A stretch of 36,214 nt of DNA, taken from positions 16,316 through 52,529 of the forward strand of contig PLQC01000009.1 in assembly GCA_003159675.1 (NCBI GenBank), given 5' to 3'. How positions within the stretch are numbered: position 1 is the stretch's first letter; each line of letters opens with the position of its first letter. The position numbers were made by a program, and so were the translations under genes. This document shows positions 767-4,540 of the stretch, one piece after another. This stretch comes from Limisphaerales bacterium (GTDB lineage Bacteria; Verrucomicrobiota; Verrucomicrobiia; Limisphaerales; BOG-1460). The notes beneath the pieces were generated by a model, which saw only the letters and a program-made list of their open reading frames with translations, ran no database searches and was not told where the DNA came from.

Positions 767-795
767 TTGCAAAACGCCGTTGTTTTCCCTACGAT
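767..795 (+). promoter_or_regulatory. sigma70-type promoter of the thrS leader
   Basis: TTGCAA (767-772) and TACGAT (790-795) are separated by exactly 17 bp. Transcription would begin about 7 nt later, at or next to the ATG of the short leader ORF at 802. This is the only good promoter I see upstream of thrS, and everything downstream up to thrS lies on the same strand. Confidence 0.55.
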
Positions 796-801
796 CCGGG
801 C

Positions 802-834
802 ATGTTCGTTCGCAGGAACACGACGACGATTTAG
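802..834 (+). CDS. putative threonine-rich leader peptide of thrS
   Basis: A ten-codon ORF, ATG to TAG, encodes MFVRRNTTTI. Codons 7-9 are three consecutive Thr codons (ACG) followed by Ile, reminiscent of the Thr/Ile-rich peptide of the E. coli thr operon leader. It starts 6 nt after a -10 box, so the message would be leaderless. It is followed by a hairpin (834-840 pairing with 852-858) and an intrinsic terminator, and thrS is the next gene. The inference is a ribosome-dependent attenuator: scarcity of charged tRNA-Thr slows translation at the Thr codons and favours read-through into thrS. Caveat: the ACG run is also a simple trinucleotide repeat, and the ORF is very short. Confidence 0.5.
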   Translation: MFVRRNTTTI

Positions 835-861
835 CGTCCATGGAAACGCCGTGGACGCCAG

Positions 862-896
862 CGCCTCGAACCGCCCAAGTCGAGGCGTTTTTGTTT
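862..896 (+). terminator. intrinsic terminator in the thrS leader (attenuator)
   Basis: CGCCTCGA (862-869) pairs perfectly with TCGAGGCG (880-887) around a 10-nt loop and is followed directly by TTTTTGTTT. No complete gene ends just upstream, so the terminator belongs to the short leader transcript. A competing pairing is possible between GTTCG-C-AGG at 808-816 and CCTCGAAC at 864-871 (8 bp with one bulge), which would remove the 5' arm of the terminator. Confidence 0.7.
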
Positions 897-910
897 ATCA
901 GGAACGAATT

Positions 911-1028
911 GAAACCACAGATGGACACAGATAGATACAGATTCTTAAGGCAGGAGCAAGCGGGACAGTGTCGCCTTCCGTCATCTTCTCGTCTCCATCT
1001 GTGTTCATCTGTGTCCATCTGTGGTTTC
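911..1028. repeat. long palindromic repeat, CCACAGATGGACACAGAT family
   Basis: Position 911-932 (beginning GAAACCACAG) is perfectly complementary, over 22 nt, to 1007-1028. The similarity continues inward with mismatches because both arms consist of ACAGATG/GACACAGAT sub-repeats. The element lies between the leader terminator and the thrS start, inside the likely 5' untranslated region, and could form a large hairpin. From memory, similar CACAGATG-rich palindromes are dispersed in Verrucomicrobiota genomes; I could not check this. Confidence 0.85.
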
Positions 1029-1040
1029 CCTTTTTAGTTT

Positions 1041-3503
1041 ATGGAAAACGAACGCAAAACTCTCGACGACCGCGCGAAGATGACCGATCTGGACCGGCTC
1101 CGCCATTCCTGCGCGCATGTGATGGCCACGGCCATCCTGCGCCTCTGGCCCGACGCCCAGTTCGCCGCCGGGCCGCCGGTCGAAAACGGCTTCTACTACG
1201 ACGTCGAACTTTCGCACCGCATCTCGCCCGAAGATTTTCCGAAGATCGAGGAGGAGATGAAAAAGGAAATCAAGGCCAACCGCACGTTCGAGAAGATCGT
1301 CGTCACGCGCGAGGAGGCGATCAAAGACGCGCAGAGCGGCCGGCTAGGCGGATTGACCGAGCGTCCAGACAACCCGAGCAAGTTCAAGATCGGCAACCTC
1401 GAGGACATTCCCGAGGGCGAGCAGATCACGTACTTCAAGAACGGAGACTTTGTCGATCTCTGCGCCGGCCCGCACGTGATGCGCACCGGCAACATCGGCG
1501 CCTTCAAGCTCACCACCGCGGCCAGCGCCTATTACAAGGGCGACGAACGCAACCCGCAACTCCAGCGCATCTACGGCACCGCGTTCAAGAACAAGACCGA
1601 GATGGAAGCCTATTTCACGATGATCGAAGAGGCCAAGCGCCGGGATCATCGTAAAATCGGCCAGGAGATGGGGCTGTTCACCATCGACACGGAGTTTGTT
1701 GGTCCGGGCTTGCCGCTCTGGCTGCCCAAGGGCACGGCGATCCTCGAGGAGTTGGAAAAACTGGCGAAGGAAACCGAGTTCCAAGCCGGGTATGTGCGGG
1801 TGAAGACCCCGCACATCGCCAAGGAGAAAATGTACCTGACCAGCGGGCACCTGCCGATTCTCTATAAAGAGTCAATGTTCCCGCCGATGGAATTGCGCGA
1901 ACACGATGAAAAGGGGAGCGCGCGCGTCCCGCGTGCCGTTTCCGGCGTCGCGCCGGAAACATCGAGCGGTGTGAAATATTCCAGACGCCCGCTTCCACAC
2001 TTTGAACGTCCATGGGCCAAATACATGGTTACGTTCAGCACCGTCGGGCGGCATCCGCTTTCACCGCCCGCCCGCGATCTTGTTTTGAAGAGTCTGTTGT
2101 TCATGAATGAACAGCGGCGCTATGAGCTTTATGCCGCGTGCGTCATGCCCGACCATGTGCATCTGCTTTTTGAGCCGCAAATCAAAGAACAGGATCAGGA
2201 GGGAAAGCCGGTATTTTGGTTGCTGTCAGAGATTTTGCATTCGATAAAGTCGTTCACCGCGCACGAAATAAGCAAAGCGCAGGGGACGAAAGGAAATCCA
2301 GTTTGGGAAAAGGAATCCTTTGACCGCATCCTTCGCAGCGACGCGGATTTGGAAGAGAAATTTCACTATATTTGCAGAAATCCGTGGGATACGGGCGTCG
2401 CAAAACCAGATAAGAGTTATCCGTGGCTTTGGACGCCGGAGGCTCCTCGGCGCGACGCCGAGGAGAGCACGCGGGACGCGCGCGCTCCCCACCCATCCCG
2501 CGAGCCTGTGTTGGCCGAAGATTCGGGGAGCGAGCGTTACTACCTCAAGGCCATGAACTGCCCGCATCATCACCGCATTTTTGCGGCGGAGCCGCGCAGT
2601 TACCGCGATCTGCCGCTGCGCCTGGCGGAGTATGGCACGTGCTATCGGTACGAACAGTCGGGCGAGTTGTTCGGCCTCATGCGCGTCCGGTCGCTGAACA
2701 TGAACGACGCGCACATTTATTGCACGCCGGAGCAGTTCGCCGCCGAGTTCAACGCGGTGAACGAAATGTACCTGAAATATTTCAAGATTTTCGGAATCGA
2801 AAAGTATGTGATGCGCTTCAGCACGCACGATCCGTCCCGCCTGACCGGCGACAACGCCAAATTTGTCAACGAACCGGAGCTATGGAAGCAAACCGAAGAC
2901 ATGGTTCGCAAGACCCTCATCGATTCGAAGATCCCTTTCGTGGAAGTGCCGAACGAAGCGGCGTTTTACGGCCCGAAGATCGACGTGCAGGTCTGGAGCG
3001 TCATCGGCCGCGAATTCACGCTGGCGACCAACCAGGTGGATTTCGCCGTGCCCAAACGCTTCGGCTTGGTCTATCGGGACAAGGACAATACGGACAAGAC
3101 ACCGCTGTGCATCCATCGCGCGCCGCTGGGGACGCATGAACGGTTCATCGGCTTTTTGATCGAGCATTACGCCGGAAACTTCCCGCTCTGGCTTGCGCCC
3201 GAGCAGGTCCGCGTCCTCACGCTGGGCGATGAGGAGCCGCTGGTGAACTATGCCCAAGGCATCGTGAACGAACTGCGCGCCCATTTTGTGCGTTGCGAGG
3301 CCGATTACTCCACCAACAAGATCAACGGCAAGATTCAGGACGCCGAAAAAGCCAAAGTTCACACCATGCTCGTCATCGGCGGTCGCGACATGGAAGCCGG
3401 CAACGTCAGCGTGCGTTTGCACGGCAAAGGCAACATCGGAGCGAAGCCGAAAGGCGAGGTCGTAGCGGATATTCTGGCGTCGATCAAAGAACGTCGCGCA
3501 TAG
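1041..3503 (+). CDS. thrS: threonyl-tRNA synthetase with an in-frame RAYT insertion
   Basis: ThrS charges tRNA-Thr with threonine in the cytosol. The protein starts directly at the editing domain (HSCAH at 22-26, CAGPH at 141-145) and lacks the N-terminal TGS domain. Class II core: motif 1 near GYVRVKTP, motif 2 around R536, motif 3 HRAPLGTHER at 692-701. The zinc ligands are conserved as C507, H558 and H692, and an anticodon-binding domain follows. All catalytic parts are present, yet the protein is 820 aa because residues 294-497 are foreign: a complete RAYT transposase domain in the loop just before YYLKAMNCP. Removing 612 bp gives a continuous 616-aa ThrS. The ATG at 1041 is fixed by an in-frame TAG at 1035. 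There is no Shine-Dalgarno. Expression is probably controlled by the leader at 767-896. Whether the hybrid protein is active is unknown. Confidence 0.95.
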   Translation: MENERKTLDDRAKMTDLDRLRHSCAHVMATAILRLWPDAQFAAGPPVENGFYYDVELSHRISPEDFPKIEEEMKKEIKANRTFEKIVVTREEAIKDAQSGRLGGLTERPDNPSKFKIGNLEDIPEGEQITYFKNGDFVDLCAGPHVMRTGNIGAFKLTTAASAYYKGDERNPQLQRIYGTAFKNKTEMEAYFTMIEEAKRRDHRKIGQEMGLFTIDTEFVGPGLPLWLPKGTAILEELEKLAKETEFQAGYVRVKTPHIAKEKMYLTSGHLPILYKESMFPPMELREHDEKGSARVPRAVSGVAPETSSGVKYSRRPLPHFERPWAKYMVTFSTVGRHPLSPPARDLVLKSLLFMNEQRRYELYAACVMPDHVHLLFEPQIKEQDQEGKPVFWLLSEILHSIKSFTAHEISKAQGTKGNPVWEKESFDRILRSDADLEEKFHYICRNPWDTGVAKPDKSYPWLWTPEAPRRDAEESTRDARAPHPSREPVLAEDSGSERYYLKAMNCPHHHRIFAAEPRSYRDLPLRLAEYGTCYRYEQSGELFGLMRVRSLNMNDAHIYCTPEQFAAEFNAVNEMYLKYFKIFGIEKYVMRFSTHDPSRLTGDNAKFVNEPELWKQTEDMVRKTLIDSKIPFVEVPNEAAFYGPKIDVQVWSVIGREFTLATNQVDFAVPKRFGLVYRDKDNTDKTPLCIHRAPLGTHERFIGFLIEHYAGNFPLWLAPEQVRVLTLGDEEPLVNYAQGIVNELRAHFVRCEADYSTNKINGKIQDAEKAKVHTMLVIGGRDMEAGNVSVRLHGKGNIGAKPKGEVVADILASIKERRA
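1938..1960. repeat. left REP hairpin of the RAYT element
   Basis: GTTTCCGGCG and CGCCGGAAAC form a perfect 10-bp stem with loop TCG. It lies just inside the left 24-bp inverted repeat and is in opposite orientation to the right hairpin, the usual REP-pair layout around a RAYT gene. Confidence 0.85.
2443..2465. repeat. right REP hairpin of the RAYT element
   Basis: CTCCTCGGCG and CGCCGAGGAG form a perfect 10-bp stem with loop CGA, the reverse complement of the left loop. The loop-proximal CGGCG/CGCCG is shared with the left hairpin, while the outer stem differs but remains fully paired, indicating that structure is conserved rather than sequence. Confidence 0.85.
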
Positions 3504-3545: not shown

Positions 3546-3705
3546 TCCGATTCGCTCGCCGTTGCGCTGCGCGAAATGCGGCGCCTGTTGTTGCTGCGAG
3601 CTGCCGGGCGAACTCTTTGGCTCACCTACCGCGACAAGGACAACACCGACAAGACGCCGAGAAGATCAAAGTGCACACCATGCTCATCATCGGCGGTCGT
3701 GATCC
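3545..3705 (+). pseudogene. decayed thrS fragment 1 (mosaic of three pieces)
   Basis: Three pieces of thrS-like sequence follow the intact gene. The first (about 3550-3625) resembles the motif 2 region and ends in the equivalent of SGELFG. The second (3630-3659) encodes YRDKDNTDKTP and matches intact thrS at about 26 of 30 bases. The third (about 3656-3702) encodes EKIKVHTMLIIGGRD in another frame. The stretches between them are deleted. The mismatches with the intact gene show an old or diverged copy, not a recent assembly duplication. Confidence 0.7.
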
Positions 3706-3789: not shown

Positions 3790-4125
3790 GTGCTGGTGAC
3801 GCCCACAGAAGTCGTCGCGTTTCGCGCCAAAGATGGCCAGGTGCCATTTGAGGTTTGGCTGGACGATGTGGACGACAAGCGGGCTGTGGCACGGGTGCTG
3901 GCGCGGTTAGCGCGCGTGCGTCAGGGCAACCTGGGCGATTGCAAATCGATTGGCGAAGGCGTCTCCGAGTTGCGAGTGGATTACGGGCCGGGCTATCGGG
4001 TCTATTTTGGGCAGAGAGGCCGGACGCTGGTGGTGCTGCTCTGCGGTGGCGACAAGCGGACACAAGACCGGGATATCCGGCTGGCAAAACAGTATTGGCA
4101 AGAATTCAAAGTGAGTGAGTCATGA
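3790..4125 (+). CDS. RelE/HigB-superfamily toxin (HI1419 family)
   Basis: This 111-aa protein belongs to the addiction-module killer family typified by Haemophilus HI1419, within the RelE/ParE/HigB mRNA-interferase superfamily. Diagnostic features are WLDDVDDKRAVARVLARLARV near the N-terminus, GEGVSELRVDYGPGYRVYF in the core and LLCGGDKRTQDRDI near the C-terminus. The gene order, toxin first and antitoxin second, is typical of this family and of HigBA. The stop overlaps the antitoxin start (ATGA, 4122-4125), indicating translational coupling. The start is taken as GTG 3790, 6 nt after the -10 box; GTG 3796 is an alternative. The cassette sits between two thrS remnants and may have arrived there by insertion. 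Target specificity cannot be read from the sequence. Confidence 0.9.
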   Translation: MLVTPTEVVAFRAKDGQVPFEVWLDDVDDKRAVARVLARLARVRQGNLGDCKSIGEGVSELRVDYGPGYRVYFGQRGRTLVVLLCGGDKRTQDRDIRLAKQYWQEFKVSES

Positions 4126-4409
4126 AAACTGTGAGTTACAAAAGAATTCTGCGTAAGAAGCTGGATGACCCCGAACAGGCGGCGGAATATCTCACTGCCT
4201 GCTACGAGGAAGGGCCGGAGGTTTTTCTGGTTGGACTCCGAGACGTTGTCGAAGCCCAAGGCGGCGTGGCCCGCGCGGCGGAGTTGAGCAAGTTGAACCG
4301 CGAGAGTTTGTATCGGCTCTTTTCGCGCGACGGAAACCCACGATTGTCGAGTTTGAATTCAGTTCTCTCCGCGCTCGGCCTGAAAGTTACTTTCGCCGCC
4401 GCAGCTTGA
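4122..4409 (+). CDS. antitoxin with HTH domain (HI1420 family)
   Basis: This 95-aa protein matches the HI1420-type addiction-module antidote family: DPEQAAEYLTACYEEG at the N-terminus, a Cro/C1-like helix-turn-helix around VARAAELSKLNRESLYRLFS, then GNPRLSSLNSVLSALGLKV. It should bind and neutralise the upstream toxin and repress the shared promoter through the palindrome at 3765-3780. It overlaps the toxin gene by 4 bp. No separate promoter is visible. Confidence 0.9.
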   Translation: MKTVSYKRILRKKLDDPEQAAEYLTACYEEGPEVFLVGLRDVVEAQGGVARAAELSKLNRESLYRLFSRDGNPRLSSLNSVLSALGLKVTFAAAA

Positions 4410-4413
4410 TTGT

Positions 4414-4540
4414 CGCGCAGTTACCGTGACCTCCGATTGCGCTTGGCGGAATACGACCCCCTGCCGCTACGAGCACTCGGGCGAATTGTTTGGCCTCATG
4501 TGCGTGCGCTCGCTCAATATGAGCGCCGCGCTTGAGCGAC
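4414..4540 (+). pseudogene. decayed thrS fragment 2 (motif 2 region)
   Basis: 4416-4470 reads RSYRDLRLRLAEYD, close to the intact RSYRDLPLRLAEYG. After a frameshift near 4455, 4460-4530 reads PCRYEHSGELFGLMCVRSLNMS, matching the intact CYRYEQSGELFGLMRVRSLNM. The same motif 2 region is also present in fragment 1, so at least two extra partial copies of thrS once existed here. This fragment begins a few bases after the antitoxin stop. Confidence 0.75.

Follow-up and report, generated by a model that had tools for sequence, protein, structure and literature searches.

In the attenuators of Proteobacteria (trp, his, thr, pheST), a short open reading frame (ORF) rich in codons for the cognate amino acid has its stop codon beside a hairpin, and an intrinsic terminator lies before the regulated gene. 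The gene for threonyl-tRNA synthetase, thrS, is controlled by other means in E. coli and Firmicutes: in E. coli by a translational operator which is bound by protein, and in Firmicutes by a T-box which binds tRNA directly, neither of them with a leader peptide. Leader-peptide attenuators have been placed in Proteobacteria, Actinobacteria and also bacilli (PMC2965389), and those predicted for Streptomyces include attenuators of the synthetase genes trpS and leuS (PMC1262725). In Sinorhizobium meliloti trpL, the attenuator RNA is leaderless: the leader's ATG stands at its very 5' end, and a terminator follows (PMC7298713). Mycobacteria are reported to have leaderless polycysteine ORFs (Canestrari 2020, cited in PMC13236596), and mycobacterial cys leaders are without a conserved terminator hairpin (PMC1262725).

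Here we describe a leader upstream of thrS in a 36,214-nucleotide stretch of a Limisphaerales genome (hereafter the window, meaning the whole of the DNA analysed). To judge from its sequence, the element is very probably a Thr leader-peptide attenuator of thrS. It is like the proteobacterial attenuators in having a codon-rich ORF, a hairpin adjacent to the stop codon (H1) and a terminator (T) before the gene. However, the proteobacterial antiterminator shares bases with the terminator, whereas canonical H1 and T share none, the target here is thrS and the host belongs to the Verrucomicrobiota. As in Sinorhizobium trpL, the RNA is predicted to start at or beside the leader ATG and then to run into a terminator; trpL differs in its Trp codons, its classical mutually exclusive structures and its place in the Alphaproteobacteria. 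The mycobacterial polycysteine ORFs are leaderless, as this leader probably is, and like it repeat the codon that is sensed, but theirs is a cysteine run without a conserved terminator hairpin. The Streptomyces trpS and leuS leaders likewise place a leader peptide before a synthetase gene, but for other amino acids, with classical antiterminators and in Actinobacteria. With the E. coli operator and the Firmicutes T-box, only the target gene is common.

Layout of the leader and its thrS gene

The features of the locus are collected in Table 1. The promoter, the 6 nt between the -10 element TACGAT and the leader ATG at 802, and the ORF all lie where the original prediction had put them, and thrS is, as it had stated, the next gene. 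The ORF ends in ACG ACG ACG ATT before its stop codon, with Thr at codons -4 to -2. The predicted terminator is also present and runs with its TTTTTGTTT to 896, but its stem comprises 10 bp rather than the 8 bp first described. A second stable hairpin, H1, had been overlooked between the leader stop codon and T, so that the fold contains two hairpins rather than one. The first paired base of H1 is the G of the TAG stop codon. The stability of the fold (energy z = -2.5) was equalled in 3 of 200 shuffles.

Table 1 Features of the thrS leader region, with positions counted from the first letter of the window.
Feature	Position	Strand	Details	Basis
Predicted promoter	767..795	+	-35 TTGCAA 767-772, 17-nt spacer, -10 TACGAT 790-795	sequence, relatives
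Putative leaderless leader peptide ORF	802..834	+	MFVRRNTTTI-stop, ATG at 802	sequence; Thr codons conserved
Hairpin H1	834..858	+	834-843 paired with 849-858	fold, covariation, conserved placing
Intrinsic terminator T	860..896	+	stem 860-869 with 880-889, then TTTGTTT 890-896	fold; near-invariant
Inverted-repeat element	911..1028	.	between T and thrS	sequence
thrS (threonyl-tRNA synthetase), predicted regulated gene	1041..3503	+	ATG 1041	Pfam tRNA-synt_2b, tRNA_SAD, HGTP_anticodon

The inverted repeat downstream of T begins AACCACAGATGGACACAGAT. Judging by the relatives, which are without it or have different sequence there, it is outside the predicted switch. Several relatives have repeats of a similar kind in the T-thrS interval, and in some of these a whole additional gene is inserted there as well.

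The thrS gene of the window is the single match in its own genome. It contains an in-frame fragment of a Y1/IS200-like transposase (Pfam Y1_Tnp; about 1920-2520, amino acids ~294-497), which is probably REP-associated. The insert has palindromic flanks and sits in a loop whose length is hypervariable in the relatives' threonyl-tRNA synthetases (13-105 amino acids), and the synthetase domains look intact. Downstream, at about 3620-3702 and 4414-4531, lie pieces left over from another thrS copy (77-85% identical in DNA), which flank a small toxin-antitoxin-like pair (Gp49/HigB-like, 3790-4125; HI1420-type antidote, 4122-4409).

Conservation of the leader in Limisphaerales

When 58 genomes of the order surveyed (Limisphaerales/Pedosphaera, Verrucomicrobia subdivision 3) were searched at the DNA level, the leader turned up in at least 12 families, at 72-85% identity. 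We built a covariance model from an alignment of 49 leaders, taken upstream of thrS in Limisphaerales, and searched 320 Limisphaerales genomes with it. Matches at E<=0.01 were obtained in 151 of them, with more than 110 at E<1e-7 and the best E values reaching 6e-21, and there was nearly always one match per genome. Many members of the order are thus without the element, and thrS can therefore run without it. Where present, the element is tightly linked to this gene: thrS lay downstream on the same strand in 67 of the 73 matches that were checked, corresponding to 67 of the 70 within the order, and the three in-order exceptions were at contig ends or behind insertions. The distance from T to thrS in relatives ranges from 18 to >1500 nt, because repeats and genes have been inserted between them.

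Beyond the order, a search of 388 genomes from across the phylum returned three weak matches, none of them real (generic terminators or an FMN riboswitch). The regions upstream of 29 thrS genes from other lineages of the phylum likewise contained no convincing combination of Thr leader and terminator, the weak candidates being L329 and L346. In SZAS-18, a more distant Verrucomicrobia metagenome-assembled genome, thrS is preceded by another kind of Thr-rich leader, MIAITTSLTPTTTRPRRA*, with a terminator (L290, ~2335-2500). Its architecture is unlike that of the Limisphaerales family, and by this comparison it is possibly of independent origin.

Some Limisphaerales depart from the common arrangement. 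In L124, thrS stands directly behind a TTGCCA-17-TAGCTT promoter and the attenuator is not seen; in L134, a Thr-containing leader of another type and a terminator precede thrS; and L106 has kept T and lost H1, with two ACG codons near T.

An alignment of relatives, the check proposed with the original prediction, showed conserved Thr codons and a covarying H1 stem. Across 105 leaders, Thr is encoded at codon -2 in 96%, at -3 in 93%, at -4 in 91%, at -5 in 61% and at -6 in 13%; upstream of -6 it falls to 0-7%, and it never occurs at -1. This is the opposite of what had been named as evidence against the attenuator, namely a terminator kept in relatives that have lost the Thr codons. The first and second bases of codons -2 to -4 are conserved at 93-99% and the third at only 36-64%, which argues for selection on the amino acid rather than on the DNA. 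The leader stop codon is TAG in 95 of the 105.

A promoter could be assigned to 77 leaders; 61 of these have TTGCCA, and 64 have a spacer of 17 nt. The leader start codon is ATG, GTG or, rarely, TTG, and lies 6-9 nt past the -10 element in most leaders. The exact arrangement TTGCCA-(16-18)-TAnnnT-(5-9)-in-frame start is above random expectation: it is present in 53 of the 105 leaders and in none of 20 shuffled upstream sets. Given this arrangement and the 6-9 nt spacing, the 5' end of the predicted transcript probably coincides with the start codon or lies beside it. A transcription start downstream of 896, the other outcome held to speak against the attenuator, is at odds with a predicted promoter which lies upstream of 802 and is conserved in relatives. 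Translation of the leader as a leaderless message, with no Shine-Dalgarno sequence, is likely on this pattern. Together, the relatives' Thr codons and promoters bear out the core of the original prediction, a leaderless Thr leader peptide with ribosome-dependent attenuation of thrS.

A search of the window's own genome for other leaderless attenuators by the promoter pattern found none, with 11 matches against 8 for a control pattern. In the same genome, TTGCCA-(16-18)-TAnnnT-(5-9)-start is also seen directly before ordinary genes (L315, L317, L321, L323). Because the pattern directly precedes such genes, leaderless mRNAs may be common in the lineage, with the reservation that the pattern count is not above control.

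H1, the terminator and candidate switches

The H1 stem covaries. In the 49 aligned sequences, 66 cells show changes on both sides of the stem, compared with 13.7 in shuffles, and 0 of 500 shuffles reach 66. For 54 held-out sequences the corresponding figures are 115 and 37, in an alignment which was fitted to the model and so leans towards it. All 105 leaders fold as exactly H1 and T, with mean energies of -18.2 kcal/mol for H1 and -16.7 kcal/mol for T. H1 starts at the third base of the stop codon in 87 of the 105, and the gap between H1 and T is 0-3 nt in 103. An intrinsic terminator, stem and U-tract, stands between the leader ORF and thrS in all leaders examined, and it is near-invariant in the 105.

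In the diverged leaders L108/L109 and L135, an unrelated stable hairpin lies downstream of the Thr codons; the leader ORF extends into it, and it directly adjoins T. A hairpin also abuts T in 12-62% of shuffles of the GC-rich diverged leaders, so abutment is weak evidence in any single one of them.

The supply of charged tRNA-Thr, sensed by the leader ribosome, is what would set thrS expression. We draw this from the codon evidence and from established attenuator logic, and a ribosome-dependent transcription attenuator of this kind is, taken as a whole, very probable on the comparative data. With a transcript that starts at the leader start codon or a few bases from it, the ribosome would load on the 5' end, using no Shine-Dalgarno sequence, and would read a short peptide that ends in three to four Thr codons, one further codon and the stop. 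Homeostasis requires that a stalled ribosome lets the polymerase pass T into thrS. During a shortage of Thr-tRNA, the ribosome would stall on the first Thr codons (-4/-5) with its front edge halted at H1, leaving H1 folded; when it is plentiful, a ribosome at the stop codon would melt the 5' arm of H1, T would form and transcription would end. The placing of the Thr run fits this scheme, for geometry and known footprints suggest that a ribosome on -4/-5 would just touch H1 and one on the stop codon would cover its whole 5' arm.

As H1 would be folded in the starved state and melted in the fed state, it should work against T. Base pairing explains such an effect in one variant only: in L080, the two hairpins have an overlap of 4 nt and are mutually exclusive, so that H1 excludes T outright by sharing bases with it. 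In the canonical leaders no such overlap exists, and T formation at equilibrium was 0.88-0.94 in every ribosome state that was modelled. Any hindrance of T by H1 would therefore be steric or kinetic. Since H1 is flush with T, we propose that the exit channel of RNA polymerase has no room for the two together: a folded H1 would block closing of the T base there, and the polymerase would read on into thrS. Our modelling leaves this switch of H1 against T as a tentative proposal, one that we would stop just short of calling probable. The more general notion, that helix-helix exclusion replaces alternative pairing, through an H1 that has no bases in common with T and is opened when a ribosome reaches the stop codon of a leaderless mRNA, is possible and is put forward with somewhat greater reserve.

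An all-pairs scan of the aligned leaders found no supported pair besides H1 and T. The antiterminator first suggested, 808-816 with 864-871, is thus without comparative support, and the doubt expressed at the time about the exact switch was justified, as the leaders yielded no conserved antiterminator that overlaps T. Two other pairings were considered and rejected. Pairing of the H1 3' arm with the terminator 3' arm (ACGCC:GGCGU) is impossible in L101 and L113, where the terminator ends in GAGGC-U, and for an extension of H1 into the terminator base, the last-codon bases match inconsistently in the alignment.

The same scan result would be in keeping with a different mode of action, in which the Thr leader acted through ribosome-polymerase coupling or through pausing at H1 rather than through exclusion between RNA structures. 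H1 sits where a pause hairpin before T would, and a leaderless start places the ribosome close behind the polymerase. We regard this explanation as unlikely; coupling or pausing alone leaves unexplained why the stop codon overlaps the start of H1 and why its other end is 0-3 nt from T.

Classical logic would reverse the roles. A stalled ribosome would cover the base of H1, and the freed 3' arm (GGACG) would pair with the terminator 5' arm (CGCC) as an antiterminator; with no stall, H1 would sequester this arm and T would terminate. When 8-14 nt past the stop codon were masked, the accessibility of the terminator 5' arm, with its partner not yet made, indeed fell from 0.72 to 0.46-0.49, and GG(A)CG:CGCC hairpins can be drawn in many sequences. 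The pairing is weak, however (about -1.5 to -2 kcal/mol in L065 and L073), it shows no covariation in the all-pairs scan, and the ACG that it needs has been lost in L089/L091 with H1 kept. Moreover, H1 would stay uncovered with a ribosome at the start of the Thr run, and a ribosome at the stop codon would likewise free the arm. We consider the classical switch unlikely.

That T does no more than end some unrelated transcript or sRNA from upstream, with thrS served by its own promoter, could be argued from the insertions of up to 1.5 kb between T and thrS in some relatives, but is very improbable for an element that is found at thrS in essentially all checked in-order matches with its own promoter and Thr ORF. 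A protein-binding operator (autoregulation by the synthetase as in E. coli) or a T-box, with incidental Thr codons, has the target thrS in its favour and is the least credible of all: the loop and upper stem of H1 vary freely in the alignments, leaving visible neither a protein-recognised sequence nor the fixed-sequence, tRNA-anticodon-like hairpins of the E. coli type, Rfam including the T-box model gave no match at gathering score or among weak matches to E=10, and the Thr codons are placed to the exact codon with free third bases.

A probable new form of leader-peptide attenuation

The Rfam model Thr_leader, which describes the proteobacterial thrABC attenuator, also gave no match at gathering score or at E<=10. 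As no conserved overlapping antiterminator was found, we do not file the element as a member of the classical trp type; on comparative grounds it would be a new form of ribosome-mediated leader-peptide attenuation. In the literature that we searched, which was mainly open-access, there was no description of leader-peptide attenuation in Verrucomicrobia or for thrS. If our reading is true, this would be the first leader-peptide attenuator in Verrucomicrobiota and the first for thrS within that searched open-access literature, and it would extend the short list of leaderless leader peptides to a further lineage. The covariance model and the 105 leaders are ready as a candidate Rfam family. The tight, conserved geometry without an overlapping antiterminator offers a compact test of whether the room that one hairpin takes up is enough to block the terminator next to it. 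In these bacteria, the element would fill the role that T-boxes have in Firmicutes and the translational operator has in E. coli.
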